Positions 7,598 through 34,208 of a DNA stretch of 64,000 nucleotides are shown here, one piece after another. This stretch comes from Thioclava marina (GTDB lineage: Bacteria; Pseudomonadota; Alphaproteobacteria; Rhodobacterales; Rhodobacteraceae). The position numbers were made by a program, and so were the translations under genes. The notes below the pieces were generated by a model that was not told where the DNA came from, ran no database searches, and saw only the letters and a program-made list of their open reading frames with translations. The first letter of the stretch is position 1; each line of letters begins with the position of its first letter. The DNA is taken from positions 186,001 to 250,000 of the forward strand of contig NZ_MPZS01000001.1 of the NCBI RefSeq assembly GCF_002020135.1. Reading direction: 5' to 3'.

Positions 7598-7659
7598 GGG
7601 GGGCGCTGCCCCCGCTCGCGTCCCGCGAGCCCCCCGAGATATTTTCGTCAAGAAGAAGG
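7598..7659 (+). repeat. Dispersed hairpin repeat, copy A
   Basis: The copy contains the shared head GGGGGCGCTGCCCCC, a perfect variable hairpin GCTCGCG-TCC-CGCGAGC, then the shared tail CCCCCGAGATATTTTCGTC and AAGAAGAAGG. It lies downstream of the SufT-like gene in sense orientation. Confidence 0.85.
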
Positions 7660-7778
7660 GGGCGGTCGTGCTCCCTTTTTGCATTTTCGCACAAGGGGTC
7701 GCGCGCGGGCGCGCTTGTCCTCGCCCCGCCCCGCCCCATCTCAACGGACCGATGCGCAAACCTGAGAAGAGGACTTGC

Positions 7779-8849
7779 ATGACCGATACGCCTTTCACCC
7801 CCGCCAAACTCGGTGCGATCGAGATCGCCAACCGTTTCGTGATGGCCCCCCTCACCCGCAACCGCGCGCCCGATCTGGTGCCGACCGATCTGACGGTCGA
7901 ATATTACCGCCAGCGCGCAGGCGCCGGGATGATCGTGACCGAGGGCACGCAGATCTCGCCGATGGGCCAGGGCTATGCCTGGACGCCGGGGATCTACAAT
8001 GACGATCAGGTCGCGGGCTGGAAGAAAGTCACCGAGGCCGTGCATGGCGCGGGCGGCAAGATCGTGGCGCAGCTCTGGCATGTCGGCCGGATCTCGGTGC
8101 CGCAGCTTCTGGGCGGGCGCGATCCGGTGGCCCCCTCGGCGATCTCCGCCGCGTCGAAGACCTTCGACGGCGAGGGGTTCGTCGAGACCACCACGCCGCA
8201 TGCCCTGAGCGTCGAGGAGATCGCCGCGACCATCGAGGATTACCGCAAGGCGGCCGCGAATGCGAAAGCTGCGGGTTTCGACGGGGTCGAGATCCATGCC
8301 GCGAATGGCTACCTGATCGACCAGTTCCTGCGCGACACCTCGAATACGCGCGAGGATGCCTATGGCGGGTCGATCGAGAACCGCACGCGCTTCCTGCGCG
8401 AAGCGGTCTCGGCGGTCGTGAGCGTCTGGGGGCCGGGCCGGGTCGGTATCCGTCTCTCGCCCTGGTCGAATGCGAACAATGTCGGCATCGACAGCGATAC
8501 GCCGGCGCTTTTCGGGGCCGTGGTCGATTTCCTCAACACGCAGGACATGGCCTTCGTGCATCTCGTCGAGGGGCAGACCGGCGGCCCGCGTGACTGGCCC
8601 GAGGGTGGGATCGAGACGCTGCGCGCGAAGATCCGGGCGCCCTATATCGCCAATAATGGCTATAGCAAGGAGATGGCCGAGGCCGCGCTGGCCGACGGGG
8701 CCACGGCGGTGGCCTTCGGGAAACTCTTCATCGCGAACCCCGATCTGCCGAAGCGTTTCGAGACCGGGGCGGCGCTCAACGAACCGAACCCGGCGACGTT
8801 CTATGGCGGCGGGGCCGAGGGCTATACGGATTATCCCTTTCTCGACTGA
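7779..8849 (+). CDS. Old Yellow Enzyme family NADH:flavin oxidoreductase (alkene reductase)
   Basis: This 356-residue TIM-barrel flavoenzyme has the OYE hallmarks: NRFVMAPLTRNRA near the N-terminus, QLWHVGRISVP, FDGVEIHAANGYLIDQFLR with the His-Ala-Asn substrate-binding group, and YGGSIENRTRFLREAV. It resembles the NemA/xenobiotic reductase branch that reduces activated alkenes, N-ethylmaleimide or nitro compounds using FMN and NAD(P)H. ATG 7779 is preceded by GAGAAGAGG. The gene has its own terminator at 8871, so it appears to be a single-gene unit. The true substrate is unknown. Confidence 0.9.
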   Translation: MTDTPFTPAKLGAIEIANRFVMAPLTRNRAPDLVPTDLTVEYYRQRAGAGMIVTEGTQISPMGQGYAWTPGIYNDDQVAGWKKVTEAVHGAGGKIVAQLWHVGRISVPQLLGGRDPVAPSAISAASKTFDGEGFVETTTPHALSVEEIAATIEDYRKAAANAKAAGFDGVEIHAANGYLIDQFLRDTSNTREDAYGGSIENRTRFLREAVSAVVSVWGPGRVGIRLSPWSNANNVGIDSDTPALFGAVVDFLNTQDMAFVHLVEGQTGGPRDWPEGGIETLRAKIRAPYIANNGYSKEMAEAALADGATAVAFGKLFIANPDLPKRFETGAALNEPNPATFYGGGAEGYTDYPFLD

Positions 8850-8870
8850 GACCGTCTGAGTGATTGAGCG

Positions 8871-8896
8871 ATGCGGGCCTGCGGGCCCGCATTTTC
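8871..8896 (+). terminator. Intrinsic terminator after the OYE gene
   Basis: A perfect 9-bp stem ATGCGGGCC / GGCCCGCAT with a TGCG loop is followed by TTTC. It lies between the convergent OYE and SulP genes. Confidence 0.8.
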
Positions 8897-8919
8897 ATTG
8901 TGTCCACGGGTTTGGCGCG

Positions 8920-10572
8920 TCACGTCACGGGTTTGTCGGCCGGACCGCCGAGGATCCCGATCGCAGCATCGACCGACTGGAAGACGAATTTCTCGCCCAG
9001 GGTCGAAAGCAGACCGCTTCGGGCGAGGTCGTCTTGCGCATGGGGGGCTTCGAGCCGCGCGAGCGCCACGACGAGGCCGCGCCCGCGCAACTCCTCGATC
9101 AGCGCGCCAAGCCGGTCCGCCCCGGTCAGATCGACCGCCAGCACGCCCGCGCATTCCAGAACCACGAGATGGGCCCCGGGCATCGCGGCGACGTGGCGGC
9201 GGATGCCGTTCATGATTCCGGAAGCATTCGCGAAACTGATCGGCGAGGTGATGCCCAGAACCAGCACGCCCTCGTAACGCTCGGGCTCCTCGTCGCTTGC
9301 GGGTCGGCGCCACCAGACCGTGGTGCCGGGGACGTTATGCAATTCGACGACCTGCGACTGGAAAAGCGGCATCGAGGCATAGACGAGCGAGAGCAGGATC
9401 GCGAGCGGCAAGCCGTATTGCAGCGGCAACAGGAACACGAGCCCGGCGGTCGCCAACGCGATCGCCCCTTCGGAGGAACTGCGGCGGATCAGGTCGTGCA
9501 ATCGGGCCGAACTCAGCAGATGCAGGGCGATATAGCTCAGAACGCCGGCCAGAGCGGCGGCGGGCAGGTTGCTGAGCACCCCCGCGCCCAGACCGAGCAG
9601 CGCCAACCCGATCAAAGCGGCACCCAGCCCCGCGAGCTGGGAACCCGCCCCGCTTTCACGCAGGATCTGGGTCCGGGGCGGGCTCGAGTTGACACCGAAC
9701 CCGCCTCCCGCGGCCGTGGCCAGATTTGCCAGCGCCAGCGCGCCGAAGGCGTTGCGGCGCTCGGGCGCGCTATCGGCGCCGCTCGTGCGCAGAACGACCG
9801 TGGTCTGCGAGAGGCACAGGAAGGTGATGGAGAGCGCGGTGGGCAGCAGGTCGATCGCGCGTGCGGCGGACAAAGCGGGCCAGTGCAGCCCCGCATCGCC
9901 CGCCACTCCCCGGATGCGCGGGAAGATCTCGCCCGAGGGATCCGCGAAGGCGGCCACGGCAATCGCACAGACCAGCGCGCTCAGGGGGATCGGCAAGCGA
10001 CGGTTCACCGCCGCTCCGATCACGCAGGCCAGCGTGATCAGAGCGGCCATGACGAAAGGCGCGAGTCTGGCCTGCCCGGAGGCGTCCCAAAGCGCGGGAA
10101 CGGTCTCGATCGGGCTTCCGGGCGGCAGGGACAGCCCCAGGGCGACCGGCAGTCGGCCCACGAAGATATGGACCGCGATCCCCGCGAGCATCCCGGAGGT
10201 CACGGGTTTCGACAAGAGCTCGGCCATCCATTCGAGCCGCAACAGCCAGACGACAAACAGCATCGCGCCCACCATCGCGGCCAGAAGCGCCGGATCCCCG
10301 GGCATCGCGCCCATCGCGGCAAGTGCAGTGGCGATGAGGGGTGCGATGGTCGAATCCGCGCCTACCGAAAGCGTCGGGTTTCGCCCGACCAGCACCATCA
10401 CCACCGAGGCCACGGCGAAAACGATCAGCCCCTGCGCCGCGGGAAGGCCCGCAAGCTGCGCAGTCGCGAGCTGTTCGGGGATCGCGATCGCGGCCAAAGT
10501 CAGCGCCGCAAACAGATCCGCGCGCGGCGCAAAGCTGGGCAGGCTCGGGAAAAGGGGCAGGCTCGGGCGCAT
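8920..10572 (-). CDS. SulP family anion transporter with C-terminal STAS domain
   Basis: The 550-residue membrane protein has about a dozen hydrophobic segments in residues 20-400. The conserved SulP entry region is IPEQLATAQLAGLPAAQGL, followed by VGRNPTLSVGADSTIAPLI. A cytoplasmic STAS domain lies at about residues 430-545 (start of domain YEGVLVLGITSPISFANA). SulP proteins move sulfate, bicarbonate or dicarboxylates. The substrate here is not evident and there is no adjacent carbonic anhydrase or cys gene. It is divergent from the HesB gene with 176 bp between them. Confidence 0.88.
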   Translation of the reverse strand: MRPSLPLFPSLPSFAPRADLFAALTLAAIAIPEQLATAQLAGLPAAQGLIVFAVASVVMVLVGRNPTLSVGADSTIAPLIATALAAMGAMPGDPALLAAMVGAMLFVVWLLRLEWMAELLSKPVTSGMLAGIAVHIFVGRLPVALGLSLPPGSPIETVPALWDASGQARLAPFVMAALITLACVIGAAVNRRLPIPLSALVCAIAVAAFADPSGEIFPRIRGVAGDAGLHWPALSAARAIDLLPTALSITFLCLSQTTVVLRTSGADSAPERRNAFGALALANLATAAGGGFGVNSSPPRTQILRESGAGSQLAGLGAALIGLALLGLGAGVLSNLPAAALAGVLSYIALHLLSSARLHDLIRRSSSEGAIALATAGLVFLLPLQYGLPLAILLSLVYASMPLFQSQVVELHNVPGTTVWWRRPASDEEPERYEGVLVLGITSPISFANASGIMNGIRRHVAAMPGAHLVVLECAGVLAVDLTGADRLGALIEELRGRGLVVALARLEAPHAQDDLARSGLLSTLGEKFVFQSVDAAIGILGGPADKPVT

Positions 10573-10748
10573 GTCTCAGGCGGTCTCCGCGACGATCGGT
10601 GGGTCTTTCTCCTTCCGTGTTAGGCCATCGTGCGACACGGGTCCATCGCCCGGGCGCGCGCACCCGCGCTGTGCGTCCCTGTCCCGGAGGCGCCCTTGGA
10701 AATCCCGGCCGCGCGCATTAGGTTGTTGCACGAAGGAGACCGCGCCCC

Positions 10749-11117
10749 ATGTTCAACGTTCCCGGACAAGATCCCGTTACCCTGACCGATGCCGCCGTCG
10801 CGCAGATTGCCAAGCTGATGGCGCGCGAAAATGCGGCCGGTTTCCGCATCGGCGTCAAGAAGGGCGGCTGCGCGGGGATGGAATACACGATGGAAGTCGC
10901 GGCCGAGGCCGGTCCGATGGATATCGTGGTCGAGAAAGGCCCCGCGCGGGTTCTGATCGCGCCGATGGCGCAGATGTTCATGCTCGGCACCGAGATCGAC
11001 TACGAGACCGGCCTTCTGGAAAGCGGCTTCAAATTTCGCAATCCGAACGTGGTCGAGGCCTGCGGCTGCGGCGAGTCGATCAAGTTTCGCGACGTCGACG
11101 CCGACGAGACCACCTGA
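10749..11117 (+). CDS. HesB/IscA family A-type iron-sulfur carrier protein
   Basis: The 122-residue protein belongs to the A-type carriers (IscA/SufA/ErpA). It shows the three conserved cysteines: one in VKKGGCAGMEY and two in the C-terminal VEACGCGES motif that bind a cluster or iron. It stands alone, not in an isc or suf operon, so which A-type role it plays is open. An AAGGAG ribosome site lies about 10 bases before the ATG. The next gene is tpiA with its own upstream region. Confidence 0.9.
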   Translation: MFNVPGQDPVTLTDAAVAQIAKLMARENAAGFRIGVKKGGCAGMEYTMEVAAEAGPMDIVVEKGPARVLIAPMAQMFMLGTEIDYETGLLESGFKFRNPNVVEACGCGESIKFRDVDADETT

Positions 11118-11220
11118 GCCACCGCGCAGGTCCGCCCTGCCCCGCGCCAATTTGCCCTTTGCGAGCAGCCGCGCCCTGGCCTAATCTCCCGCGCAATGAC
11201 ATCAGGGAGAGAGAAACCAC

Positions 11221-11964
11221 ATGCGCAAGAAACTTGCTGCCGGCAACTGGAAGATGAACGGGCTCAAGGGCGACCTGCACGAGGTCTCGGCGCTCATCGA
11301 AGCCCATCCCCACCCGAAATGCGACGTTCTGCTCTGCCCGCCCGCGACGCTGATCGCAGGCATGTCGATGACGGCGGCGGGCCGGATCGCTGTGGGGGGC
11401 CAGGATTGCCACATGCGCAGCTCGGGGGCGCATACCGGCGACATTTCCGCGCAGATGATCCGCGATGCGGGCGGCTCCTACGTGATCCTCGGGCATTCCG
11501 AACGCCGCGCCGATCACCATGAGAGCGACGTGATCGTGCGCGCCAAGACCGAGGCCGCGATCGAGGCGGATCTTGTCGCGGTGGTCTGCGTGGGCGAGAC
11601 GGAGGCGCAGCGTGACGCGGGCGAGACGCTGACCCTGATCGGCAACCAGCTCAAGGGTTCGCTGCCCGATCATGCAAGCGCCGCCAATACCGTCATCGCC
11701 TACGAACCCGTCTGGGCGATTGGCACCGGCCGTACCCCGACGCTTGAGCAGATCGCGGAAGTCCACGATTTCATGAGAGAACAGCTGATCAAGCGTTTCG
11801 GAGCCGAGGGCGACGGGATGCGTCTGCTCTATGGCGGATCGGTCAAACCCTCGAACGCCGCCGAGATCTTCGCGGTCTCGAATGTCGATGGCGCGCTGGT
11901 TGGCGGGGCCTCGCTCAAGGCCGCTGATTTCGGCGCGATCATCGAGGCGCTTGCGGCCAGTTGA
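11221..11964 (+). CDS. tpiA: Triosephosphate isomerase
   Basis: TpiA interconverts dihydroxyacetone phosphate and glyceraldehyde-3-phosphate. The 247-residue barrel shows all catalytic residues: Lys11 in GNWKMN, His92 in GHSERR and Glu162 in [11 protein letters not shown], plus the phosphate loop [23 protein letters not shown] ribosome site precedes ATG 11221. A hairpin terminator follows, so it is probably transcribed alone. Several Rhodobacterales carry two tpiA copies; I cannot see another in this window. Confidence 0.96.
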
Positions 11965-11995
11965 GCCGCGCCCGACCATTGCAGATACCAATTCG

Positions 11996-12026
11996 CCGCC
12001 CGGTCTCCATGCCGGGCGGTTTTTCC
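11996..12026 (+). terminator. Intrinsic terminator after tpiA
   Basis: A perfect 8-bp stem CCGCCCGG / CCGGGCGG with an 8-nt loop is followed by TTTTTCC, 31 bases after the tpiA stop codon. Confidence 0.85.
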
Positions 12027-12157
12027 ATGTCCCCGGCAGAACCGACCCGCTCCAACTCGGGTATGACCGAAGATGTCAAAGCACATATCGGTCTCGCCAA
12101 GTCAAATCTCTTCGCCCATAGTGCCGTCAGGGTCATGCAACAGGGCGGAAAAGACAG

Positions 12158-13510
12158 ATGACGACAGCGGGCGGGTACGTTCGGCGGGTTTTGATGGTCG
12201 CTGTGCCGGCGGCACTTGGGGTGTTCGCGATCTATTACGCAGGCAATCTCAAGAGCTTGCCCGAACCCACTGAAACGAAGCGCAATCCGACGCCGGTTCG
12301 GGTCATCACGCTTGAACCGATCGATCTCGTTCCGCGGGTCAGCGGCTACGGCACGATCGCGCCGGTGCGCGAATGGCGCGCGGTGGCGCGGATCGAGGGA
12401 GAGGTCACCGAAGTCGCCCACCCGCTCGCCCCCGGCGACATCGTGCCCGCTGGGACGCTCGTGTTCCGCATCGACGACAGCGATCTGAAACTCGATCTGG
12501 CGAATATCGACGCGCAGCTCGCCGCCTCGAAGGTGAAGGATGAGACCGTCAAGGCGAGCCTTGCGCTGGCGCAATCCGACCTCGCGCTGATGCAGGAAGA
12601 TCTCAAGCGTCAGGAGCGGCTCAACAGTCAGGGCGTGGTGACGCAAGCGGCACTGGAGGCCACGCGCCGCCAGGAGCTGACCGCGCGCACCAAGGTCACC
12701 GAGCTTGAAAACCAGATCACCTTGAATGGCGCGGAACGCGAAGTTCTGGGCACGCAGCGCAGCTCGCTCGAACGCTCGATCGGTTTTGCCGAGATCCGCG
12801 CGCCCTATGAGCTTCGCGTGGCCTCGATCAGCGCCGATCTGGGGCAATATGTCAGCCGGGGTCAGGTGATGCTGACCGGCGAAGGCACCGAAGCGGTCGA
12901 TATCTCGGCGCAATTCCCGATCGGACGGATCGGCCCGCTGCTGCGTCTGGCTGGCGAAGGCACCGAGGTTACCGATCTCAAGGCCAAGGTGAAACTGCCC
13001 GCGCCCGAGCATCAGGTCGACTGGCCCGCCACGGTCGAGCGCATGGGTGAGGCGATCGACGAGCGCACGCAAAGCGCGCCGGTCGTGGTGCGCGTCGACG
13101 ACCCGCAAAGCCAGAGCGTCGCAGGTCAACGCCCGCCGCTGCGGCGCAACATGGTCGTCGAAGTCGAGCTTTCCGCCCCCAAGCGCAAGGCGCTCGTGGT
13201 GCCGGTCGAGGCGGTGCAAAACGGCTTGGCGCTCGTTGTCTCGGCCGAAGGCGTGCTCGAGAAGCGCCCCGTGACGACCGGTTTCGTCTCGGGCGATATC
13301 GCGGTGGTGGCGAACGGGCTCAAGCCGGGCGATCAGCTCGTCGTAACGGACCCTTCGATCGCGGTCCCGGGCATGGCGGTGAAGCCGCTCGAGGATGATG
13401 CGCGCAAGGCCGAGATCCTCGCCGAGGCGCTCGGTCAGGCGGCGGAGGCCCCCAAGCCCGGCTCGGGCGGCGGCGCAGGCGGCGGCAAGAACAAAGAGGC
13501 CGCGCAATGA
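12158..13510 (+). CDS. RND efflux periplasmic adaptor (membrane fusion protein)
   Basis: The 450-residue protein has an N-terminal membrane anchor (residues 10-30), then the two halves of a lipoyl-like domain (VARIEGEVTEVAHPLAPGD and FAEIRAPYELRVASISAD). Between them lies a long alpha-helical hairpin (about 110-200), followed by beta-barrel and membrane-proximal parts and a Gly/Lys-rich tail. This is the HlyD/AcrA architecture that links an inner-membrane RND pump to an outer-membrane channel. The stop overlaps the pump start (ATGA at 13507). No TolC-like gene or local regulator is present, so the outer-membrane partner must lie elsewhere. Confidence 0.9.
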   Translation: MTTAGGYVRRVLMVAVPAALGVFAIYYAGNLKSLPEPTETKRNPTPVRVITLEPIDLVPRVSGYGTIAPVREWRAVARIEGEVTEVAHPLAPGDIVPAGTLVFRIDDSDLKLDLANIDAQLAASKVKDETVKASLALAQSDLALMQEDLKRQERLNSQGVVTQAALEATRRQELTARTKVTELENQITLNGAEREVLGTQRSSLERSIGFAEIRAPYELRVASISADLGQYVSRGQVMLTGEGTEAVDISAQFPIGRIGPLLRLAGEGTEVTDLKAKVKLPAPEHQVDWPATVERMGEAIDERTQSAPVVVRVDDPQSQSVAGQRPPLRRNMVVEVELSAPKRKALVVPVEAVQNGLALVVSAEGVLEKRPVTTGFVSGDIAVVANGLKPGDQLVVTDPSIAVPGMAVKPLEDDARKAEILAEALGQAAEAPKPGSGGGAGGGKNKEAAQ

Positions 13511-16500: not shown

Positions 16501-16647
16501 TTCGGTATGACCGCCGCGACGGTCCTGTCGCTCTTCGTGACCCCGGCGCTGCTGGCGATCCTCGAAGATTTCGGCCTCAATCTCGCCACCAAAGAGGCTG
16601 AGGAGGACAGCGCCGCGCCGCTGACCGAGCCCGCCACGAAGACTTGA
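13507..16647 (+). CDS. RND family efflux permease
   Basis: The 1046-residue protein has the duplicated RND layout: a TM helix at about residues 10-30, a large periplasmic loop, a TM cluster around 335-475, a second periplasmic loop, and a final TM cluster around 855-1020. The proton-relay aspartates are D394/D395 in [16 protein letters not shown]. The second half carries the matching [17 protein letters not shown]. It forms a pump with the adaptor encoded just upstream and would be driven by the proton gradient. The exported compound cannot be predicted from these motifs. Confidence 0.93.
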
Positions 16648-16745
16648 CACGTCCCGCTCTTCGCGCGGCGCCGATTGCATGGCGCCGCGCGGCACCTATA
16701 TCCGCCTCGCTTGGGATCACGTCAGGTGAGAGGACGCGAAAGAGA

Positions 16746-20495: not shown

Positions 20496-21623
20496 TCAGT
20501 CCGCCGCCTGTGCGTCGGCTCGGGATTTGCCCTCGACCCCCATGGCCAGCGTCGCCGCCATGAGCCCGTCGAGATCTCCATCGAGCACGCCCTGCGTATC
20601 CGAAGTCTCGAACCCGGTGCGCAGGTCCTTCACCATCTGATAGGGCTGAAGCACATAGGACCGGATCTGGTTGCCCCAGCCCGCCTCGCCCTTGTTCTCG
20701 TGAGCCTCGTTGATCGCAGCGGTACGCTTGTCGAGCTCCATCTGGTAGAGGCGCGACTTCAGCGCGTTCATCGCGATCTCGCGGTTCTGGTGCTGCGATT
20801 TCATCGAGGAGGTCACTACGATCCCGGTCGGGATGTGGGTGATCCGCACCGCCGAGTCGGTCGTGTTCACGTGCTGACCGCCGGCGCCCGAGGACCGGTA
20901 GGTGTCGACACGGATATCGGAAGGGTTCACCACGATGTCGATATTGTCGTCGACCACCGGATAGACCCAGACCGAACTGAACGAGGTGTGACGGCGCGCC
21001 GCCGAGTCATAGGGCGAGATCCGAACGAGACGGTGCACGCCCGATTCCGATTTCAGCCAGCCATAGGCATTGGGGCCCGAGATCTTGTAGGTCGCCGATT
21101 TGATCCCGGCCTCTTCGCCCGGGCTCTCGGATTCGAGCTCGACCGTGTACCCCTTCTTCTCGGCCCAGCGGACATACATCCGCGCCAGCATCGAGGCCCA
21201 GTCGCAGCTTTCCGTGCCACCCGCGCCGGAATGCACTTCGAGATAGGTATCGTTGCCATCCGCCTCGCCATCGAGAAGCGCCTCGAGCTCCTTGCCCGCG
21301 GCCTCCTCTTTCAGCGCCTTGAGCGATTTCTCGGCCTCGGAGACGATCTCGGCATCGTCTTCCATCTCGCCCAGTTCGATCAGCTCGACATTGTCGGTGA
21401 GCTCCTGCTCGATGCGCTGATAGGTCTCGAATTTGTCCATCAGTTGCTGACGATCGCGCATCAGCTTCTGCGCGCGCGCCTGATCGTCCCACAAGGTGGG
21501 ATCCTCGATCATGGCGTTGAATTCCTCGATCCGGTGCGGCGCGGTCTCGAGATCCATGCGCTGGCCCAGCAGGGCAAGCGATTTGCGGATCTGCTCCACG
21601 ATATTCTGCGTCTCGGCGCGCAT
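20496..21623 (-). CDS. prfB: Peptide chain release factor 2 (RF2)
   Basis: RF2 ends translation at UGA and UAA. The 375-residue protein has the GGQ motif at residues 248-250 and the RF2-specific recognition site as SPY at 203-205 ([15 protein letters not shown]), where E. coli has SPF. The reading frame is continuous, with no in-frame UGA and no CUUUGA slip site near codon 25, so the programmed frameshift known from E. coli prfB is absent. The adenylate-kinase-like gene follows closely. Confidence 0.96.
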
Positions 21624-21720
21624 ATGTCGTCCTTCGTGATATCTTGGTGCGGGTGATACGAAATCGACAGCCCGCCCGCAAGCACCGGCGTCGCAAGAGG
21701 CGGCGGAGGGGCGCTCGGAA

Positions 21721-21783
21721 AGGGGCGCTGCCCCCGCCTGCCCTTCGGCAGGCTCCCCCGAGATATTTGGATCAAGAAGAAGG
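21721..21783 (+). repeat. Dispersed hairpin repeat, copy B
   Basis: The copy contains the head GGGGCGCTGCCCCC, a perfect variable hairpin GCCTGCC-CTTC-GGCAGGC, the tail CCCCCGAGATATTTGG and ATCAAGAAGAAGG. It lies upstream of prfB, head away from copy C. Confidence 0.88.
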
Positions 21784-21797: not shown

Positions 21798-21857
21798 TTT
21801 CTTCTTGATGGAAATATCTCGGGGGAATCCGCGTCAGCGGATGGGGGCAGCGCCCCC
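21798..21857 (-). repeat. Dispersed hairpin repeat, copy C (inverted relative to B)
   Basis: Read on the minus strand this copy has GGGGGCGCTGCCCCC, a hairpin ATCCGC-TGAC-GCGGAT, CCCCCGAGATATTTCC and AAGAAGAA. It begins 3 bp after the stop codon of the amidohydrolase gene and forms a tail-to-tail pair with copy B, 14 bp apart. Confidence 0.88.
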
Positions 21858-21860
21858 GTT

Positions 21861-23024
21861 TCAGCCGATCGGCAAGGCGCGCTCGGCCAACCGCGCGAGG
21901 AAGGACGCGCCCATCGGGGCGGCCTCGTCGTTGAAATCGTAACGCGGGTGATGGAGGCCGTGGCCCTCGCCCGTTCCCATGAAGAGATAGGCGCCCGGGC
22001 GGGTCTCCAGCATGTAGGAGAAATCCTCCGCCCCCATTTCGCGCGCGGCGCGACGCTCGACCCGGCCGGTGCCGGCGATTTCCTCGGCGACCGTCGCGGC
22101 GAACTCGGCCTCATCCGCGTCATTGACCGTGGGCGGGTAGCCGCGCTCATAGGTGATCTCGATCTCGACGCCATGCGCCGCGGCAAGCCCCGACACGATG
22201 TCACGAAAACGGCTTTCCGCCAGATCGCGGATCGCGGGATCGAAGGCGCGGATCGTGGCGCAGAACCATCCCTCTTCGGGAATGATGTTCGAAGCAGAAC
22301 CGACATGGATCTGGGTGACGGAAATCACCAGCTCGTCGCCCGCACCGACATTGCGCGCCACCACCGTCTGCAGAGCGTTGACCATGCCGGTGATCGCGAC
22401 GATCGGGTCGATGCAATCTTGCGGCGTGGCGCCATGCCCGCCCTTGCCGCGCACCGTGACCCAGGCGGTATCGACCGAGGCCATATAGGGGCCCGGCGTG
22501 GTGTAGAAATGGCCGAACGGCAGGCCCGGCGCGTTATGGATGGCGAAAACGCGGGCGATCTTGAAACGGTCCATGACGCCCTCGCGCACCATTACCTCGC
22601 CGCCGCCGCCCTCTTCTTCGGCGGGCTGGAAGATCAGCGCCACGGTGCCTGCGAAATTGCGCGTCTCGGCGAGGTAGGCGGCCGCGCCCAGAAGCATCGT
22701 GGTATGCCCGTCATGACCGCAGGCATGCATCTTGCCTTCCGTCTCGGAGGCGTAATCCGCGCCGGTCTCCTCGGTGATCGGCAGCGCGTCCATATCGGCG
22801 CGCAGCCCCACCACCGGGCCCGGCGCGCGCCCCTTGATCAGCGCCACGATACCGCTTTGGGCGATGCCTTCATGGATCTCGTCGACACCGATCTCGCGCA
22901 GGCGTTCAGCCACGAAGGCGGAGGTCTGCGGCAGGTCGAATTCAAGTTCGGGATGGCGATGCAGCCAGCGCCGCCATTCGGTCATCCGGTCTCCGAGATC
23001 GGCGATTCGATTGATGACGGGCAT
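21861..23024 (-). CDS. M20 family amidohydrolase (hippurate-hydrolase-like)
   Basis: The 387-residue protein is an M20D-type metallohydrolase. It shows RRWLHRHPELEFDLPQTS, VVGLRADMDALPITEET, the metal-binding KMHACGHDGHTTMLLGAAAYL region, the PAEEEGGGG segment with the catalytic glutamate, and a C-terminal GAEDFSYML. Family members cleave N-acyl amino acids, hippurate or indole-acetyl conjugates; the substrate here is unknown. It is divergent from mazG with 63 bp between starts, and a dispersed repeat copy abuts its stop codon. Confidence 0.9.
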   Translation of the reverse strand: MPVINRIADLGDRMTEWRRWLHRHPELEFDLPQTSAFVAERLREIGVDEIHEGIAQSGIVALIKGRAPGPVVGLRADMDALPITEETGADYASETEGKMHACGHDGHTTMLLGAAAYLAETRNFAGTVALIFQPAEEEGGGGEVMVREGVMDRFKIARVFAIHNAPGLPFGHFYTTPGPYMASVDTAWVTVRGKGGHGATPQDCIDPIVAITGMVNALQTVVARNVGAGDELVISVTQIHVGSASNIIPEEGWFCATIRAFDPAIRDLAESRFRDIVSGLAAAHGVEIEITYERGYPPTVNDADEAEFAATVAEEIAGTGRVERRAAREMGAEDFSYMLETRPGAYLFMGTGEGHGLHHPRYDFNDEAAPMGASFLARLAERALPIG

Positions 23025-23087
23025 GGTGGACTTCCCTCGCGCGGATGGTTAGGCCAGAGCCAATCGCATGGCAGGAGGCAAGCTGCA

Positions 23088-23930
23088 ATGGCCAAACCCG
23101 ATGACGCGCTGATCTTTGACGAGAGCGGGGAGGCCGCGCATCAGTTCGACCGGCTGATCGCGATCATGGCCTGTCTGCGCGACCCGAAAACGGGCTGCCC
23201 CTGGGATCTCGAACAGGATTTCGCCTCCATCGCCCCCTACACGATCGAGGAGGCCCATGAGGTCGCCGATGCGATCGCGCGGCAGGCCTGGGAAGAGCTG
23301 CCCGGAGAGCTGGGCGATCTGGCCCTGCAGGTGGTCTATCACGCGCAGATGGCCTCGGAAGAGGGCCGGTTCGACATCGCCGATGTACTGCGGGCGATCA
23401 ACGCCAAGATGGTGGCGCGCCACCCCCATGTATTCGGCAATGAGAGCCGCGACAAATCCGCGGCGCAGCAAACCGCGGATTGGGAAAAGATCAAGGCGGC
23501 CGAGCGGGCCGCGGCGGGCAAGACCGAGCGCGTCGGGGTTCTCGATGGAGTCGCGCTGGGGCTGCCCGCGCTGACCCGGGCGATCAAATTGCAGAACCGT
23601 GCGGCGCGGGTCGGGTTCGACTGGCCCTCGACCGACGAGGTGCTGGAAAAGATCGTCGAGGAGGCGCGCGAGCTGGAAGAGGCGCGCGACCAGCTCGGGC
23701 CCGAAGAGCTGGCCGAGGAATATGGCGACCTGCTTTTCGTGATGGTCAATCTCGGACGGCATCTCGAGCTCGATCCGGAGGGCGCTCTGCGCGCGGCAAA
23801 TCTGAAATTCACCAATCGCTTCAATTATATCGAGCGTGAACTCGAGGCGCGCGGCAAGGCTCCGAAGGATAGCGATCTGGACGAGATGGACGCGCTCTGG
23901 AACGCGGCGAAAGCGCGGGGGATCAAGTGA
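23088..23930 (+). CDS. mazG: Nucleoside triphosphate pyrophosphohydrolase MazG
   Basis: MazG hydrolyses (d)NTPs to monophosphates and pyrophosphate. The 280-residue protein has two MazG domains, at residues about 20-125 (containing GCPWDLEQDFASIAPYTIEE and the ELGDLALQVVYH metal-binding helix) and about 160-265 (containing EEYGDLLFVMVNL). ATG 23088 is supported by an AGGAGG ribosome site ten bases upstream. A degenerate copy of the dispersed repeat follows the stop codon and fills the gap to the convergent tauE gene. Confidence 0.93.
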   Translation: MAKPDDALIFDESGEAAHQFDRLIAIMACLRDPKTGCPWDLEQDFASIAPYTIEEAHEVADAIARQAWEELPGELGDLALQVVYHAQMASEEGRFDIADVLRAINAKMVARHPHVFGNESRDKSAAQQTADWEKIKAAERAAAGKTERVGVLDGVALGLPALTRAIKLQNRAARVGFDWPSTDEVLEKIVEEARELEEARDQLGPEELAEEYGDLLFVMVNLGRHLELDPEGALRAANLKFTNRFNYIERELEARGKAPKDSDLDEMDALWNAAKARGIK

Positions 23931-23933
23931 CCG

Positions 23934-23992
23934 GAGAGGGCTCTGCCACCGCGCTGTCGCGCCCCCCGAGGTATTTCGGGCAAGCTGAAAGG
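23934..23992 (+). repeat. Dispersed hairpin repeat, copy D (degenerate)
   Basis: The head is decayed (GAGGGCTCTGCCACC), the hairpin is short (GCG-CTGT-CGC) and the tail reads CCCCCCGAGGTATTTCGGGC then AAGCTGAAAGG. It starts 3 bp after the mazG stop in sense orientation. Confidence 0.65.
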
Positions 23993-23993
23993 C

Positions 23994-24809
23994 TCAGAGA
24001 AACGCCTTGCGCAGCATGTTCAGCGCGACCAGCATCAGGAAGACCGCAAAGACGCGCTTGAGCTTCTTCGGATCGAGCTTATGCGCCAGCGCGGCACCCA
24101 GCGGCGCGGTGAAGGTGGTCATCGCGATCACGATCAGGAAGGCGGGGATGTTCACCGCCCCGATCGAATAGGGCGGCGCATCGGCCACGGGCGTGAGCAG
24201 GAAGCCGATCGCCGAGGGCAGAGCGATGGTCACGCCGAAGCCCGCCGAGGTCGCGACCGCGCGGTGGATCGGGATGCCGTGCAACGTCTGCATGGGTGTG
24301 CCGATCGAACCGCCGCCAATCCCCAGCAGAACCGACAGAAACCCCATCAGTGGCCCGAACCAGGCGCGGAACAGCCCGCCCGGCAGCCCGTCCGAGATCC
24401 GCCAGCTCGATTTGCCGAACATCATGTAAAGCGCGATCACCATCACCATCACCGCGAAGATGATCTGCATGGTGGAGGAACGCAGCTGATGCACCACCAG
24501 CACGCCGATCACCGCGCCGATGGCGATCGGCACCACCCATTGCTTGAGGATCACCCAGTCGACCGCGCCCTTGCGGTTATGCGCCATGACCGAGCGGATC
24601 GAGGTCACGATGATCGTCGCCAGAGAGGTCGCCACACAGACCTGCATCAGATCGTCGGACGCATAGCCCAAGCCGTTGAAAAGATAGAAGAAGGCGGGGA
24701 CCAGAACGATCCCGCCGCCGACGCCCAGAAGGCCCGCGAGAACCCCCGCGAAAGCGCCCACCCCCATCAGGATCAGCACGAGGGGCACAAGGGTGGACAG
24801 ATCGGGCAT
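23994..24809 (-). CDS. TauE/SafE family sulfite exporter-like permease
   Basis: The 271-residue protein has about eight hydrophobic segments in two similar halves. It shows the family signatures LAGLLGVGGGIVLVPAFFYL near the N-terminus and SVLLGIGGGSIGTPMQTL in the second half. TauE/SafE proteins are linked to export of sulfite or organosulfonates, but many members have unknown cargo. It lies 24 bp downstream of dusA on the same strand and may share its transcript. No taurine or sulfite metabolism genes are nearby. Confidence 0.88.
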   Translation of the reverse strand: MPDLSTLVPLVLILMGVGAFAGVLAGLLGVGGGIVLVPAFFYLFNGLGYASDDLMQVCVATSLATIIVTSIRSVMAHNRKGAVDWVILKQWVVPIAIGAVIGVLVVHQLRSSTMQIIFAVMVMVIALYMMFGKSSWRISDGLPGGLFRAWFGPLMGFLSVLLGIGGGSIGTPMQTLHGIPIHRAVATSAGFGVTIALPSAIGFLLTPVADAPPYSIGAVNIPAFLIVIAMTTFTAPLGAALAHKLDPKKLKRVFAVFLMLVALNMLRKAFL

Positions 24810-25832: not shown

Positions 25833-25908
25833 GGCGGTTTGCCTCTTGGACCGTCTCTAATGCGTCGCCCTCGCCCCCGAGGCGTAAAGTCTACCGGTGA
25901 GAGGGAGG

Positions 25909-25985
<77 letters not shown>

Positions 25986-26033
25986 CTGAGCGCGGATATA
26001 GAGAAGCCGTGCGCGCGCCGCAACTGCGAATTC

Positions 26034-27756: not shown

Positions 27757-27903
27757 CGGCGGACCCTTGCACAAACGTGAGGCAAGCCCCCTTGAATGGC
27801 GTGAACTTCCCTGAAATGCCATATATGATCAACGCGAAACCGCAACCAAGAACGGCCCGCCCGACCCGGAAGGGGCCGCGACAGACGGCAGAAAAGAGAG
27901 AAA

Positions 27904-28071
27904 ATGGGGCGCATCTTCAAGCTCATCGTCATCCTTCTGATCCTTGGCACGATCGGCGTGATAGGCTTCGCCTATCTCGGAGACATGAGCCCGGACAGCC
28001 AGGAGCAACGTATCGAGGTCACCTTGCCCGGAGGGGTCGGTGCTGGCAGCGGGGGAACGGGTGGGAACTGA
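27904..28071 (+). CDS. Small single-pass membrane protein (55 aa)
   Basis: A short frame opens at ATG 27904 after an AAAGAGAGAAA ribosome site. The 55-residue product has one membrane helix (IFKLIVILLILGTIGVIGFAY, residues 4-24) and a short polar, Gly-rich tail with SPDSQEQRIEVTLPGG. It begins the plus-strand unit divergent from aroK and overlaps the next gene by 32 bp in another frame. I do not know its function. The regular helix, good ribosome site and coupling make it likely real. Confidence 0.65.
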   Translation: MGRIFKLIVILLILGTIGVIGFAYLGDMSPDSQEQRIEVTLPGGVGAGSGGTGGN

Positions 28072-29623: not shown

Positions 29624-30585
29624 ACGACGCGCCGCCCGATGCACGCTGGCTGCCCGCCTTTCTCGAAGCGCAAGCCGCCGAAGCGGGGGCCGCGCGCAAC
29701 ACGATCCTCGGATATGGGCGTGACCTCAATGACTTCGCGGGCTTTCTTCAAGCGAAAGGCCTGAGCTACGCGACCCTTACTCGCGAGAATATCGAGACCT
29801 ACCTGATCCGCTGTGAGGCCGACGGGCTCGCGAAATCGACCCGCGCGCGACGTCTGAGCGCGATCCGGCAGCTTTTTCGTTTTGCCTATGAAGAGGGCTG
29901 GCGCGCCGACAATCCCGCGATCCGCATCTCCGGCCCGGGCCGCGCGAAACGCTTGCCCAAGACGCTTTCGCTCGAAGAGGTCGAAGCCTTGCTGGAGGCC
30001 GCCCGCGATCAGGGACGTTCCGCCCGCGACCAGATCCGCAACCGCTGCCTGATGGAATTGCTCTATGCCACGGGGATGCGAGTTTCCGAGCTCGTCTCCC
30101 TACCCGTCTCTGCCGCGCGGGGCGATCCGCGGATGCTTCTGGTGCGCGGCAAGGGTGACAAGGAACGCATGGTGCCACTCTCACCGCCCGCGCGTGAGGC
30201 GCTGGCCGACTGGCTCAGAGCACGCGATGCCGCCGAGGAAGAGGCGCATGTCCGACACCGTGCCCCCTCCTCTCGGTTTCTCTTTCCCTCGCCGGGAAAG
30301 GAAGGCCACCTGACCCGGCAATCCTTTCACCGATTGCTCAAGGATATCGCGGTGAATGCGGGGATCAGCCCCGCCAAGGTCACGCCCCATGTGCTGCGCC
30401 ACGCCTTCGCGACTCATCTTCTGCAAGGCGGGGCCGATCTGCGCGCGATCCAGATGCTGCTGGGCCATGCCGATCTCTCGACCACCGAGATCTATACCCA
30501 TGTGCTCGACGAGCGGCTCAAGGAACTGGTGCTTCAGCATCACCCGCTAGCCAAACCGCGCGGCAATCGGCACGGCGACGCTTGA
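29620..30585 (+). CDS. xerD: Site-specific tyrosine recombinase XerD
   Basis: XerD with XerC resolves chromosome dimers at dif at the division septum under FtsK control. The 321-residue protein has the SAM-like N-terminal domain (residues 8-105). The catalytic domain carries R154 (TGMRVSEL), K178 (VRGKGDKERMVPL), H257/R260 (HVLRHAFATHLL), H283 (LGHADLSTTEIYTHV) and the nucleophile Y292. A lone chromosomal copy without att sites or phage genes argues for the housekeeping Xer protein. Its start overlaps the upstream gene as ATGA. Confidence 0.9.
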   Translation: MNDAPPDARWLPAFLEAQAAEAGAARNTILGYGRDLNDFAGFLQAKGLSYATLTRENIETYLIRCEADGLAKSTRARRLSAIRQLFRFAYEEGWRADNPAIRISGPGRAKRLPKTLSLEEVEALLEAARDQGRSARDQIRNRCLMELLYATGMRVSELVSLPVSAARGDPRMLLVRGKGDKERMVPLSPPAREALADWLRARDAAEEEAHVRHRAPSSRFLFPSPGKEGHLTRQSFHRLLKDIAVNAGISPAKVTPHVLRHAFATHLLQGGADLRAIQMLLGHADLSTTEIYTHVLDERLKELVLQHHPLAKPRGNRHGDA

Positions 30586-30618
30586 ATGCGCCACGGCGCG
30601 GCCCCATAACCTAAGCCC

Positions 30619-31929
30619 ATGGAAAACACTCTCGATATTGCCTTCTGGATCACCGCCGGCGCGATCGTTCTGCTTCTGGCGCTCTCGGCCTTCTTCTCGG
30701 GCTCTGAAACCGCGCTGACGGCCGCGAGCCGCGCCAAGCTGCGTGCGCAGGCCGACAAGGGCGAAACGGGCGCGAAGACCGCGCTGGAGGTCACCGAAGA
30801 CAGCGAGCGGCTGATCGGTGCGATCCTGCTGGGCAATAACGTGGTCAACATCCTCTCGGCGGCGCTGGCCACCGCGCTTCTGACCCGGATCTTCGGGCAA
30901 TCGGGCGTGGCCCTCGCGACGGTGGTGATGACGCTCCTTGTGCTGATCTTCTCCGAAGTCCTGCCGAAGACCTACGCGATCACCCTGCCCGAAAAAGTCG
31001 CCGCCAAGGTCGCCGGTCCGATCCGCGTCGTGACCTTCGTGCTCGCCCCCATCGTCGCTGTGGTACGGATGATCGTGCGCGGCATCCTTTATGCCTTCGG
31101 CATGCGCACCGACAAGAACACCCATATGTTCTCGATCCACGAGGAGATCGCGGGCGCACTGGCGCTGGGTCAGTCCGAGGGAACGGTCGACAAGGAAGAC
31201 CGAGACCGCCTGCTGGGCGCGCTCGATCTGGGCAATCGCACGGTCGAGGAGATCATGCTGCACCGCTCGCAGATCGAGATGCTCGATATCGAGCAGGACC
31301 CGGATTCGATCCTCACGGCGGTGCTTTCCTCGCCCCATACACGCCTGCCCCTCTATCGCGGCGAGCGCGAGAACGTGGTTGGCGTGATCCATTCGAAAGA
31401 CCTGCTGCGCGCGGTGGAGAAAGTCATGCGCGGAGGCGACGGCACACTCGAGAGCATCTCCGATCTCGACCTCACCAAGGTGATGATGAAGCCCTATTTC
31501 GTGCCCGAGACGACGCCTCTCGACGAGCAGATGCAGGAATTCCTCAAGCGTCGCACCCATTTCGCGCTGGTGGTGGACGAGTATGGCGACCTGCGCGGAT
31601 TGCTGACGCTCGAGGACATCCTCGAGGAAATCGTGGGCGAGATCACCGATGAATTCGACCCCAAGGCCGAGCGCAACCTCAAGCCCACCGAAAGCGGCGA
31701 TTACATAGTCGACGGTTCGATGACGATCCGCGATCTCAACCGCGAGACCGACTGGAGCCTGCCCGATGACGAGGCCAACACGATCGCGGGCCTGGTGATC
31801 CACGAGGCGCAGACGATCCCGACGGAAGGTCAGGTCTTCTCCTTCCATGGCTTCCGCTTCGAGGTGCTGACGCGCAAGGACAACCGGCTGACCCGCCTCA
31901 AGATCCGCCCGCTGATCCCCGGCGCGTGA
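30619..31929 (+). CDS. CNNM/CorC-type transporter-associated protein (DUF21-CBS-CorC_HlyC)
   Basis: The 436-residue protein has an N-terminal DUF21 membrane domain (residues 10-180, about four helices, with ALSAFFSGSETALTAASRAKL). A pair of CBS domains follows (about 200-340, including FALVVDEYGDLRGLLTLEDIL), then a C-terminal CorC_HlyC domain. Relatives are linked to Mg2+/Co2+ efflux or homeostasis; older names call them hemolysin-like. It follows xerD by 33 bp and probably belongs to the same unit. A dispersed repeat overlaps its stop codon. Confidence 0.9.
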   Translation: MENTLDIAFWITAGAIVLLLALSAFFSGSETALTAASRAKLRAQADKGETGAKTALEVTEDSERLIGAILLGNNVVNILSAALATALLTRIFGQSGVALATVVMTLLVLIFSEVLPKTYAITLPEKVAAKVAGPIRVVTFVLAPIVAVVRMIVRGILYAFGMRTDKNTHMFSIHEEIAGALALGQSEGTVDKEDRDRLLGALDLGNRTVEEIMLHRSQIEMLDIEQDPDSILTAVLSSPHTRLPLYRGERENVVGVIHSKDLLRAVEKVMRGGDGTLESISDLDLTKVMMKPYFVPETTPLDEQMQEFLKRRTHFALVVDEYGDLRGLLTLEDILEEIVGEITDEFDPKAERNLKPTESGDYIVDGSMTIRDLNRETDWSLPDDEANTIAGLVIHEAQTIPTEGQVFSFHGFRFEVLTRKDNRLTRLKIRPLIPGA

Positions 31930-31992
31930 GGGGGCGCTGCCCCCCGCTGCGCTGACGCGCTGCCCCCGGGATATTTATGTCCAAGTCGAAGG
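31928..31992 (+). repeat. Dispersed hairpin repeat, copy E
   Basis: The copy starts within the stop codon of the CorC-type gene. It reads GAGGGGGCGCTGCCCCC, an almost perfect variable hairpin GCTGCGC-TGAC-GCGCTGC with one T-T mismatch, then CCCCCGGGATATTTATGTCC and AAGTCGAAGG. Confidence 0.85.
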
Positions 31993-31999
31993 TGCGCGA

Positions 32000-32245
32000 T
32001 CAATCGCAGGCGCAGCCCGGCCCCTTGTGGCAGGCTTTCGAGCGGCTGATGCAACTGTCGCCGCAAGCCTTCCCCTTCGAGCAGTGCTTGCAGCATTTCG
32101 CATGGACCACGCCTGTCTGATGAGCGATCTGGAACAGCGCATCCCTGGTCCCGACCGCGGAACGATCTCGTTCGGGAGCCGTTTGCGCAGCTCCCACGGA
32201 CGCCGCCAAGACGAATGCGACGATACTTGCCGTGACTTTGGACAT
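32000..32245 (-). CDS. Small secreted Cys-rich protein (81 aa)
   Basis: The product has a signal peptide (cleavage near AAQ, residue 20), a short polar spacer and a compact C-terminus with eight cysteines. The pattern is CCKHC - GKACGDSC - ACHKGPGCACD. Proteins with this CCKxC/GKxCGDxC pattern are widespread in proteobacteria as hypotheticals; metal binding or disulfide bonding is plausible but not shown. A strong GGGGGAGG ribosome site precedes ATG 32245. It ends 8 bp from repeat copy E and is divergent from guaA. Confidence 0.75.
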   Translation of the reverse strand: MSKVTASIVAFVLAASVGAAQTAPERDRSAVGTRDALFQIAHQTGVVHAKCCKHCSKGKACGDSCISRSKACHKGPGCACD

Positions 32246-32370
32246 CTGTCCTCCCCCTTGACCGCTTCCCACGTTAACGATGGTTAATTATGGGCCGTAT
32301 GGGGTCAAGTGCGCGCTCGGGGCCTGCTGCCCTCTTGCCAAGAAGCCGCGCCGGCCCTAATGGCAAAGCC

Positions 32371-33936
32371 ATGACACAGCACCAGCGCCTCCTCATCATC
32401 GACTTCGGCTCCCAGGTCACGCAGCTGATCGCGCGTCGCCTTCGCGAGCTCAATGTCTATTGCGAAATCCATCCCTATCAGAACGTGACGGATGCCTTCC
32501 TCAAGGAGTTCGCCCCGAAGGCGATCATCTTCTCGGGCGGGCCCGACAGCGTGACGCGCGAGGGATCGCCGCGTCCGCCGCAAAGCGCCTATGAGATGGG
32601 CGTGCCGATCCTCGGGATCTGCTATGGCCAGCAGGTGATGATGCAGGATCTGGGCGGGTTGGTGGAGGCTGGCCAAAGCCACACCGCCGAGTTCGGCCGC
32701 GCCTATGTGACGCCGACCGAGACGCGGATCGATCTGCTCAATGGCTGGTTCATGGATGGCACGGGCCGCGAACAGGTCTGGATGAGCCATGGCGACCATG
32801 TCAGCAAGCTCGCACCGGGCTTCGAGGTCTTCGGGACCTCGCCGGGTGCGCCTTATGCGATCACCGCCGATCTGAGCCGCCGGTTCTACGCGGTGCAATT
32901 CCACCCGGAAGTGCATCACACGCCGAACGGAAAGACCCTCTACGAGAATTTCATCCGTGACGCGGGCTTCACCGGTGACTGGACGATGGCGGGCTATCGC
33001 CAGCAGGCGATCGACGCGATCCGCGAGCAGGTCGGCGACGCGCATGTGATCTGCGGGTTGTCGGGCGGCGTGGACAGCTCGGTCACCGCGATATTGCTGC
33101 ATGAGGCGATCGGCGACCAGCTGACCTGCGTTTTCGTCGATCACGGCCTGCTGCGGATGAACGAGGCCGACGAAGTGGTCACGATGTTCCGCGACCATTA
33201 CAACATCAAGCTGATCCATGCCGACGAGTCCGAGCTGTTCCTCGGCGAGCTGGAAGGCGTCACCGACCCCGAGGTCAAGCGCAAGACGATCGGTCGTCTC
33301 TTCATCGACGTGTTCCAGAAATACGCCAACCAGATCGAGGACGCTGAATTCCTCGCTCAGGGCACGCTCTACCCCGATGTCATTGAATCGGTGAGCTTCT
33401 CGGGCGGCCCTTCGGTCACGATCAAGTCGCACCACAATGTGGGCGGCCTGCCCGAGAAGATGGGTCTCAAGCTGGTCGAGCCGCTGCGCGAGCTGTTCAA
33501 GGACGAAGTGCGCGCGCTTGGTCATGAGCTGGGCCTGCCGGCCTCCTTCATCGGCCGCCACCCCTTCCCGGGGCCCGGCCTTGCCATTCGCTGCCCCGGA
33601 GAGATCACCCGCGACAAGCTCGAGATCCTGCGCAAGGCGGATGCGGTCTATATCGACCAGATCCGCAAGCACGGGCTCTATGACGAGATCTGGCAGGCCT
33701 TCGTCGCCATCCTTCCCGTCCGCACCGTCGGCGTGATGGGCGACGGGCGCACCTATGACTATGCCTGCGCGCTGCGCGCGGTAACCTCGGTCGATGGCAT
33801 GACCGCCGATTACTACCCGTTCAGCCACGAGTTCCTCGGCGAGACCGCGACGCGGATCATCAACGAGGTGAAGGGCATCAACCGGGTGACCTATGACATC
33901 ACCTCGAAGCCCCCGGGCACGATCGAGTGGGAATGA
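32371..33936 (+). CDS. guaA: GMP synthase (glutamine-hydrolysing)
   Basis: GuaA converts XMP to GMP with glutamine and ATP. The 521-residue protein has an N-terminal class I amidotransferase domain with the nucleophile Cys84 in [10 protein letters not shown] and the His-Glu pair in [11 protein letters not shown]. The ATP-pyrophosphatase P-loop is [13 protein letters not shown], and the C-terminal dimerisation domain ends in the conserved PPGTIEWE. I chose ATG 32371; a longer in-frame start adds 27 unrelated residues. A repeat copy follows the stop by 7 bp. Confidence 0.96.
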
Positions 33937-33943
33937 CATGAGA

Positions 33944-34011
33944 GAGGGGGCGCTGCCCCCTCTTTTCCTTTCAGGAAAATTCACCCCCGGGATATTTTCG
34001 CCAATTCGAAT
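33944..34011 (+). repeat. Dispersed hairpin repeat, copy F
   Basis: The head GAGGGGGCGCTGCCCCC is followed by an A/T-rich but perfect hairpin TTTTCCT-TTC-AGGAAAA, then CCCCCGGGATATTTTCGCCA. The hairpin sequence is unrelated to the other copies while the pairing is kept. It follows guaA in sense orientation. Confidence 0.85.
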
Positions 34012-34142
34012 GCGCGAAACGACGTCTTAACCGGAATGGGCATAGCGAGATCTGGCGGTACGGGCGGGGACACCGATGACCGCCCAAGGCGAGCTTGTCC
34101 GGCTCGCCGCCTCTTTGTGGATCGAGGCGTGAAAATCCTCCT

Positions 34143-34208
34143 CCCTTCTTCTTGAGATAAATATCTCGGGGGAGAGGCGCGGAACGCGCCGAGGGGGCAG
34201 CGCCCCCT
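34143..34208 (-). repeat. Dispersed hairpin repeat, copy G
   Basis: On the minus strand it reads AGGGGGCGCTGCCCCC, a hairpin GGCGC-GTTCC-GCGCC, CCCCCGAGATATTTATC and TCAAGAAGAAGGG. It faces copy F tail-to-tail across 131 bp. Confidence 0.88.

Follow-up and report, generated by a model that had tools for sequence, protein, structure and literature searches.

Copies of the repeat in the window

The window analysed here is a stretch of 64,000 nucleotides from Thioclava marina (contig NZ_MPZS01000001.1, positions 186,001 to 250,000), in which seven copies of a dispersed, hairpin-forming repeat, designated A to G, lie between positions 7598 and 34208, several of them directly behind genes. The repeat begins with a hairpin of the form GGGGGC-GCT-GCCCCC (P1), which is followed by a second hairpin of nearly free sequence (P2), a run of C's, the motif GRGATATTT, three free bases (N3) and an 11-mer, here called the word. 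In copy A (7598..7658, plus strand, covariance-model E-value 5.3e-16), located 53 bp 3′ of the stop codon of a Pfam FeS_assembly_P gene (7179-7544, plus), P1 reads GGGGGCGCTGCCCCC, P2 is followed by the tail CCCCCGAGATATTT, and the word after N3 is TCAAGAAGAAG. Copies B (21720..21782, plus, E = 6.9e-14) and C (21798..21858, minus, E = 4.0e-13) are arranged tail-to-tail; B has no sense gene upstream, and C lies 2 bp past the stop codon of an M20 peptidase gene (21861-23024, minus). Copy D (23935..23990, plus, E = 2.8e-4) is degenerate, with a poorly matching head, and directs its tail end toward the stop codon of a TauE gene (23994-24809, minus). Copy E (31929..31991, plus, E = 1.8e-11) shares the last stop-codon base of a CNNM/CorC gene (30619-31929, plus). 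Finally, copy F (33945..34011, plus, E = 3.3e-10), 8 bp past the GMP synthase gene guaA, and copy G (34145..34208, minus, E = 2.2e-13), which carries the word TCAAGAAGAAG and has no sense gene within 528 bp upstream, are the left and right elements of a larger composite locus.

All seven copies are present where the initial annotation had placed them. The tail CCCCCGAGATATTT, allowing up to two mismatches, has seven matches in the window against 0.27 expected, a number reached in none of 100 shuffles, and the head motif has six against 0.92 expected (reached in one shuffle of 100); across the whole genome, the tail with at most one mismatch occurs 114 times and its reversed control not once. 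The description of P2 as variable yet paired likewise holds. There are 98 distinct stems among the 106 parsed copies of the T. marina genome (40 of 146 were unparsed) and 80 among 85 parsed copies from the family (13 of 98 unparsed), and about 96% of stem shuffles fold worse on average, while the folding z-scores of single copies are modest (-2.0 to +1.1). The claim of covariation stands in part: alignment cells changed on both sides number 57 against 33.9 (0 of 500 shuffles), but pairs changed on both sides number eight against 7.3 in shuffles (159 of 500), an effect, in the simple alignment, of the three registers in which the stem is found (CTC..TCA, CTCT..ATTCA and G..C). Between orthologues of equal length, P2 shows three compensatory pairs, all in one copy, one one-sided change and four broken pairs. 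Five copies had been thought to follow a gene in sense orientation; four do (A, C, E and F), and copy D is excluded because the open reading frame before it (21948-23930, plus) is antisense to the Pfam-supported M20 peptidase gene. The lack of a T-run in the sense direction is confirmed, the tail consisting of the C-run and GRGATATTT.

Placement and persistence of the copies

A covariance model built from 34 copies of the T. marina genome (G000; its congeners are G001 to G015) matches the 3.65-Mb genome at 146 places (E ≤ 1) in 111 clusters, with the seeds included and three matches partial. Genes were predicted with a codon-based finder, which yielded 569 genes over 522 kb of stretches picked around the copies. 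Only four of 145 copies fall within predicted genes; these and one uncovered site set aside, 141 copies could be scored for placement. A sense gene lies upstream of 103 of them (47% expected), with the stop codon at a median distance of 11 bp, and 68 lie in sense no more than 25 bp past the stop codon, against 10% expected from simulation in the same intergenic gaps. Divergent gaps hold 12 of the 141 (26% expected). Placement so far from random removes random scatter as an objection to the initial annotation, whose view of a structured, REP-like (repetitive extragenic palindromic) element at gene 3′ ends, distinct from an ordinary intrinsic terminator, is supported. On plasmids, the best site overlaps no annotated feature in 34 of 36 records and the other two are unannotated, the gene tables being incomplete and some nearly empty.

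Where copies cluster, their arrangement is uniform, with 31 clusters of +- type in T. marina, one ++-, one ++ and one --, and no -+; in G001 all 24 doublets are +-. Opposed doublets are thus always tail-to-tail and never head-to-head, and their spacing falls into two ranges, 8-30 bp (26 doublets in T. marina, 21 in G001) and 123-138 bp (five and three). The sites are largely common to both species, whose long flanks are about 89.5% identical. Among 73 clusters with both flanks found in the fetched G001 stretches, 65 have the same composition there, and the eight that differ may for the most part reflect decay. For individual copies, 120 of 146 have a homologous fetched G001 stretch, with an element at the matching place in 113 (105 distinct partners). 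As the G001 stretches were picked around its own copies, sites lost in G001 are uncounted, and these figures therefore demonstrate shared sites and give no measure of loss.

REP elements and bacterial interspersed mosaic elements (BIMEs) with REP-associated tyrosine transposases (RAYTs) are described as intergenic palindromes of more than 100 copies, species-specific in sequence, forming doublets and found at gene 3′ ends (Nunvar 2010, PMC2817692). The 146 matches share these properties, and copy number, palindromes, 3′-end position and doublets would all suit a classical REP element moved by a RAYT (Y1) transposase, the partner that the initial annotation had proposed to look for. The corresponding family PF01797 is, however, missing in T. 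marina, whose genome comprises five contigs and is listed at 100% completeness, and in 12 of the 15 congeners, the E. coli control being positive; one or two Y1 genes each occur in three copy-rich congeners (G006, G009 and G014). A GTAG foot is found in none of the 146 own and 98 family copies. The missing Y1 gene contradicts this origin unless a RAYT was recently lost in each lineage, which makes it the least probable of the explanations considered. The present family also differs from the REP/BIME systems in its order-wide constant core with a separate genome-specific tag and in its RNA-like composites.

Relation to transcription terminators

Intrinsic terminators are likewise GC-rich hairpins just past stop codons, and at guaA a classical terminator replaces the element in congeners. 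The 3′ end of this gene bears the element in T. marina and G001, decayed in the latter, and a T-run hairpin in eight of the 14 other genomes of the genus, by our reading within about 10 bp of the stop codon in five and some 30-70 bp from it in three. In contrast to such terminators, the repeat has no sense T-run, continues after its hairpins with the C-run and GRGATATTT, and carries a constant tag downstream. Behind the M20 gene, a pair is found in G000 and G001, a single sense copy in G015, and a reversed copy, with T's directly after its P1, in four congeners; an A-rich stretch 5′ of the head, which would turn reversed copies into terminators of the opposite direction, is not general in the T. 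marina genome. Canonical terminators outside the masked element are rarer at element-bearing ends (6/91) than at other ends (26/121; Fisher p 0.003), and appear at one of 34 ends that face only a reversed copy. Furthermore, the lengths of the two C-runs are coupled, being equal in 73 of 106 own copies (48.2 expected, 0/5000) and 69 of 85 family copies (45.7 expected, 0/5000), a pattern expected if each of them were a potential partner of the G-run, and a switch between P1 and a G-run:C2 pairing is possible.

These features would fit a terminator or 3′ stabiliser selected by the host, in which the P1/P2 hairpins, the C-run and a weak GRGAUAUUU hybrid act together and the words are homogenised by short-tract gene conversion, no partner being involved. 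Enforced folds, however, prefer P1 to the G-run:C2 pairing by a median of 5.2 kcal/mol, the canonical terminator already precedes the element at five of the six ends that have both, and the words and composites are left unexplained; on balance, this explanation appears rather unlikely. Strong termination is in itself improbable because some copies lie between closely spaced genes, ten of 45 tandem copies ending within 14 bp of the next start codon, and because one, in Loktanella, fills the 70-bp phnK-phnL gap inside an operon. We infer from such positions that any 3′-end function is weak or conditional.

Genome-specific words

The word in the tail GRGATATTT-N3-WORD is particular to each genome and common to dozens of its copies. 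In T. marina, 54 of 60 tails of the GAG class carry TCAAGAAGAAG, and GGG tails carry CCAAGAGGAAG or CCAATTCGAAG; in G001, TCAAGAAGAAG is present in 71 of 75 GAG-class tails and the GGG class has GCAGTTGGAAR-like words. Ten genomes besides these two matched, of which six (one in part) each have a prevailing word or two of their own among the matches listed; there, the word is GACAGAAGA in 54 of 55 for G017, AACAGAAGAA in 15 of 15 for G020 and GCAAAATGAAG in 7 of 7 for G024. For named loci (82 words parsed from 98 copies), words differ on average at 1.2 of 11 positions within a genome (20 pairs) and at 4.4 between genomes (3301 pairs), although these pairs are not independent. The head need not consist of P1 and P2 but can be a different GC-rich hairpin. 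The same words and tails also follow a second type of head, type B, GCCTCCGGCGG and then (R)GATATTT, at 30 exact sites of the T. marina genome (e.g. C1:445678). Neither the genome-specific tag nor the second head type was part of the initial annotation. Type B heads sometimes stand tail-to-tail with the first type (C1:585942 and C1:616799), and a further module, with the head stem GTCGCCGG(A)GGGCGAC and a tail of the kind AAATACTGACG, lies 5′ of some copies (C1:566328, C1:830302 and C3:606421 of the same genome).

The words of a genome change in concert, and orthologous sites of G000 and G001 have exchanged words. The word class has changed in 25 of 85 unique G000-G001 pairs with both tails parsed, and P2 is identical in 7 of 29 word-changed and 13 of 45 word-kept pairs. 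The 50 pairs with word I retained agree in 1.88 of 3 bases of N3 (random 1.24); agreement is approximately random in the word-changed groups, and also in eight pairs kept in class II (1.0 vs 0.92). Because N3 is random where the word has changed and partly kept where word I was kept, the comparison suggests that the tail is exchanged as one unit, with selection on fast-changing bases as the alternative.

Short genome-specific words and inverted pairs behind genes are shared with the DNA uptake sequences found in terminators, for which generally 1000 or more copies are given (Kingsford 2007, PMC1852404). The repeat might accordingly serve each genome as a signal for DNA uptake (or recombination) that is placed in inverted pairs, like those of Neisseria and Pasteurellaceae. 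Its 146 model matches are several-fold fewer than that source states, and the words are all but confined to the element, YCAAGARGAAG having eight matches outside the tail context in the T. marina genome, one of them at an element, against 13 for the reversed control. We consider such a signal very improbable. The same count led us to reject a trans RNA that carries this bare word and is encoded elsewhere in the genome.

Composite loci

The long tail-to-tail pairs enclose a conserved spacer which carries a third word. In these composites, the word stands on both arms around a conserved hairpin, with an inner copy, WORD′, between them. One such locus, overlooked in the initial annotation although it falls inside the interval described there, lies between copies F and G. 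Its spacer (34012..34144, plus), a decayed member, contains TTAACCGGAAT, the scaffold hairpin GCGGTACGGGCGGGGACACCGATGACCGC and the inner word CCAAGGCGAGC at about 34084-34095, as judged from an alignment of eight spacers, the composite alignment and a pattern match with three mismatches (G000:C1:220060-220095). Of the 16 genomes of the genus, 14 have one to four matches to the composite core pattern, 40 in total, some with three mismatches and not all of them composites; 30 came with loci, and 29 were aligned after the weak match L498 was left out. T. marina has one composite for each of three main words, plus decayed ones including that in the window, G008 and G001 have one each for two main words, and G015 likewise, with two weak matches in addition, roughly one composite per main word in the best-sampled genomes. 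The two congeners with no composite match are G003, which has 45 copies of the repeat, and G011, which has none at E ≤ 0.001; the system may therefore be lost or divergent there.

WORD′ resembles the word of its own locus. Over the 29 composites, it differs from its own right flank by 1.41 mismatches in 10 and from the others by 3.49 (0/2000 permutations), and, measured against the nearer flank, 23 of 28 mismatches lie at positions 5-6, 22 of the 29 composites having such a central change. In the helix of WORD′ with the right arm, all eight pairs show changes on both sides, and the whole composite structure has 61 changed cells, against 16 in shuffles and 6-28 when slid. Across the genus, the scaffold hairpin, GCGG(N)ACA-GGCG-GGGA-CGCC-GATGACCGC, hardly varies. 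Other genera show compatible changes of its inner stem (GGCT/AGCC in Thalassococcus and Paracoccus), and the composite layout, with G in place of A6, recurs in Thalassobius (L231), Thalassovita (L269), a Rhodobacteraceae metagenome-assembled genome (MAG; L266), Thalassococcus and Paracoccus.

Plasmids of Cereibacter (E 0.002) and Thiothrix (E 0.03), among others, carry weaker scaffold matches with no flanking elements in the stretches read, which suggests that the RNA-like motif predates the repeat. Among these, the bare scaffold of Thiothrix and Cereibacter plasmids (L547, L543 and L548) is found near antirestriction, DUF932/DUF945, H-NS or replication genes. On small plasmids of Phaeobacter (L544) and Paracoccus tegillarcae (L546), a GATATTT-N3-GAACAAAGAT tail precedes the scaffold and the inner word GAACGGAGATG, the P. 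tegillarcae unit lying 5′ of a replication gene. Paracoccus replicons (L552-L559) carry another tail, GAGTATTT or GGGTATTT-N3-GAACGAAGAAG, which follows GCATG or GCAGTG-like bases and at two sites lies 3′ of a classical terminator. Rfam families were rejected as an identity: above the gathering score, the window contains only a tRNA and eight composite loci only tRNAs. Below it, L548:1560-1638 matches CcsR1 at 27.5 bits (cut-off 65.3).

Miniature inverted-repeat transposable elements (MITEs) are also non-coding, with inverted ends around a spacer and many short derivatives. The repeat could thus be a MITE-like family served by a putative transposase, with composites as full-length masters with outward heads, tight tail-to-tail pairs as deletion derivatives, single copies as solo ends and words as subfamily signatures. 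The many intergenic copies, the opposed doublets in one arrangement with two spacings, the terminal inverted repeats around the composite spacer, the turnover at guaA across the genus and the tails apparently replaced together with N3 at orthologous sites, class II pairs being about random too, all agree with this. On the other hand, no target duplication or clean empty site was seen in the 73 G000-G001 clusters compared, most of which are the same in the two species, P2 shows that few copies are identical, the copies are located behind stop codons, and both the absence of a Y1 transposase from the T. marina genome and the single partial match in phage records (see below) argue against mobility. 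Although unlikely, this is the alternative that we take most seriously.

Words as tags and composites as possible keys

The correspondence between dispersed tails and composites was assessed with positions 5-6 ignored, using distinct tails from fetched stretches only, so that most genomes contributed few. Tails matching a composite of their own genome number 110/140 in G000, 97/100 in G001, 7/8 in G002, 3/3 in G004, 13/18 in G005, 12/14 in G006, 2/2 in G007, 2/2 in G008, 8/10 in G009, 3/3 in G010, 9/9 in G012, 1/5 in G013, 13/16 in G014 and 3/5 in G015. Matches to composites of other clades, as drawn by us, average 0 to 0.60 and reach 1.0 in single cases, owing to words that genomes have in common. 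In the Paracoccus sampled (four stretches of 50 kb of one replicon each for P. denitrificans and P. pantotrophus), the word GAACGAAGAAG occurs seven times, always after a TATT tail, and three of these are composite arms; other keyless words are also present. The matching supports, and does not prove, one key per tag.

The family, its placement, the genome-specific words and the composites are established from sequence. The explanation that we tentatively prefer is that of a REP-like 3′-end repeat with a tag dictated by a key locus, the composite. Each composite would be the key for its word, either yielding a small structured RNA or serving as a mobile master copy, and a putative protein would, by way of the composite, recognise GATATTT-N3-WORD sites and thereby keep the words of all copies in step; that the recogniser acts in trans is inferred. 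The hairpins behind stop codons may have a part in defining mRNA 3′ ends or in protecting them, whether weakly or bidirectionally, and would not act as strong terminators.

Several observations weigh against this explanation. Some words have no key, namely 30 of 140 distinct tails in G000, five of 18 in G005 and four of five in G013, for which the average fit to foreign keys (0.52) exceeds that to its own, and 200 kb of P. pantotrophus hold three tails CAAGAAAGAAG and no matching composite. As the composite search tolerated three mismatches, keys may be missed and some matches are not composites. WORD′ equals a flank in six of 29 composites and in one more differs off-centre only, and its resemblance to the arms may reflect only pairing inside the composite. 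Finally, 38 of 141 copies have no upstream sense gene, and the copy inside an operon and those close to the next gene speak against a part in termination.

A more specific form of the tag-and-key explanation is RNA-guided marking of gene ends in Rhodobacterales. RNA-guided DNA binders of the TnpB/TldR/Cas12 kind combine a constant motif beside a variable target word with a guide in a structured RNA. The repeat shares with them a constant T-rich motif 5′ of a variable word, which is found again, in the same orientation, within a structured, RNA-like locus; here, the inner word mostly differs at its centre, and both the RNA and its protein partner are hypothetical. The small RNA would consist of the scaffold hairpin with its GGGA loop, an 11-nt guide (WORD′) and an intrinsic-terminator hairpin, and the protein carrying it would recognise GATATTT, three free bases and WORD past the stop codons, in DNA or in RNA, with a mismatch built into the centre of most guide-target pairings, so that a change of guide would drive concerted change at more than 100 sites. 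Each genome would then write its own dialect. Such a mechanism seems to us unlikely. The composite loci offer a place to intervene under any of the candidate agents (RNA, transposase or conversion), and the tag-and-key pattern makes it testable how a hundred dispersed sites change sequence together.

Distribution of the repeat

The covariance-model search of relatives, which the initial annotation had recommended, found the repeat in 15 of 16 genomes of the genus, T. marina included, with 22-124 matches each, the high counts being lower bounds as scoring was limited to about 131 per genome. Beyond the genus, seven of nine other family members have matches and one of 16 further genomes of the class has, weakly. 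A class-wide draw, in which 18 candidates were scored per genome, gave matches in four of 289 genomes, strongly only in T. marina; of three other family members in it, one has a single weak match. At least 115 stretches of GTDB contigs matched, and the 80 loci listed from them bear the names of Rhodobacteraceae, Rhodobacterales or genera of that order (Carideicomes was looked up), except for two MAGs labelled Proteobacteria only. The named carriers listed are nearly all Rhodobacterales, which suggests that the repeat is Rhodobacterales-wide. A phage origin was rejected, with one partial match among 50,697 phage records; other searches gave three contigs for the repeat and one for the scaffold. 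Searches of the open-access literature with exact repeat and scaffold strings and with keywords found no description of this gene-end repeat. The order includes model phototrophs, denitrifiers and abundant marine bacteria, and the repeat would aid the annotation of 3′ ends in it.

Apart from the repeat, the window contains a direct repeat of 192 nt (5587-5778 and 20730-20921, 75% identity), the second unit of which lies inside a release-factor gene and the first inside a gene at 5362-6417, perhaps its paralogue.

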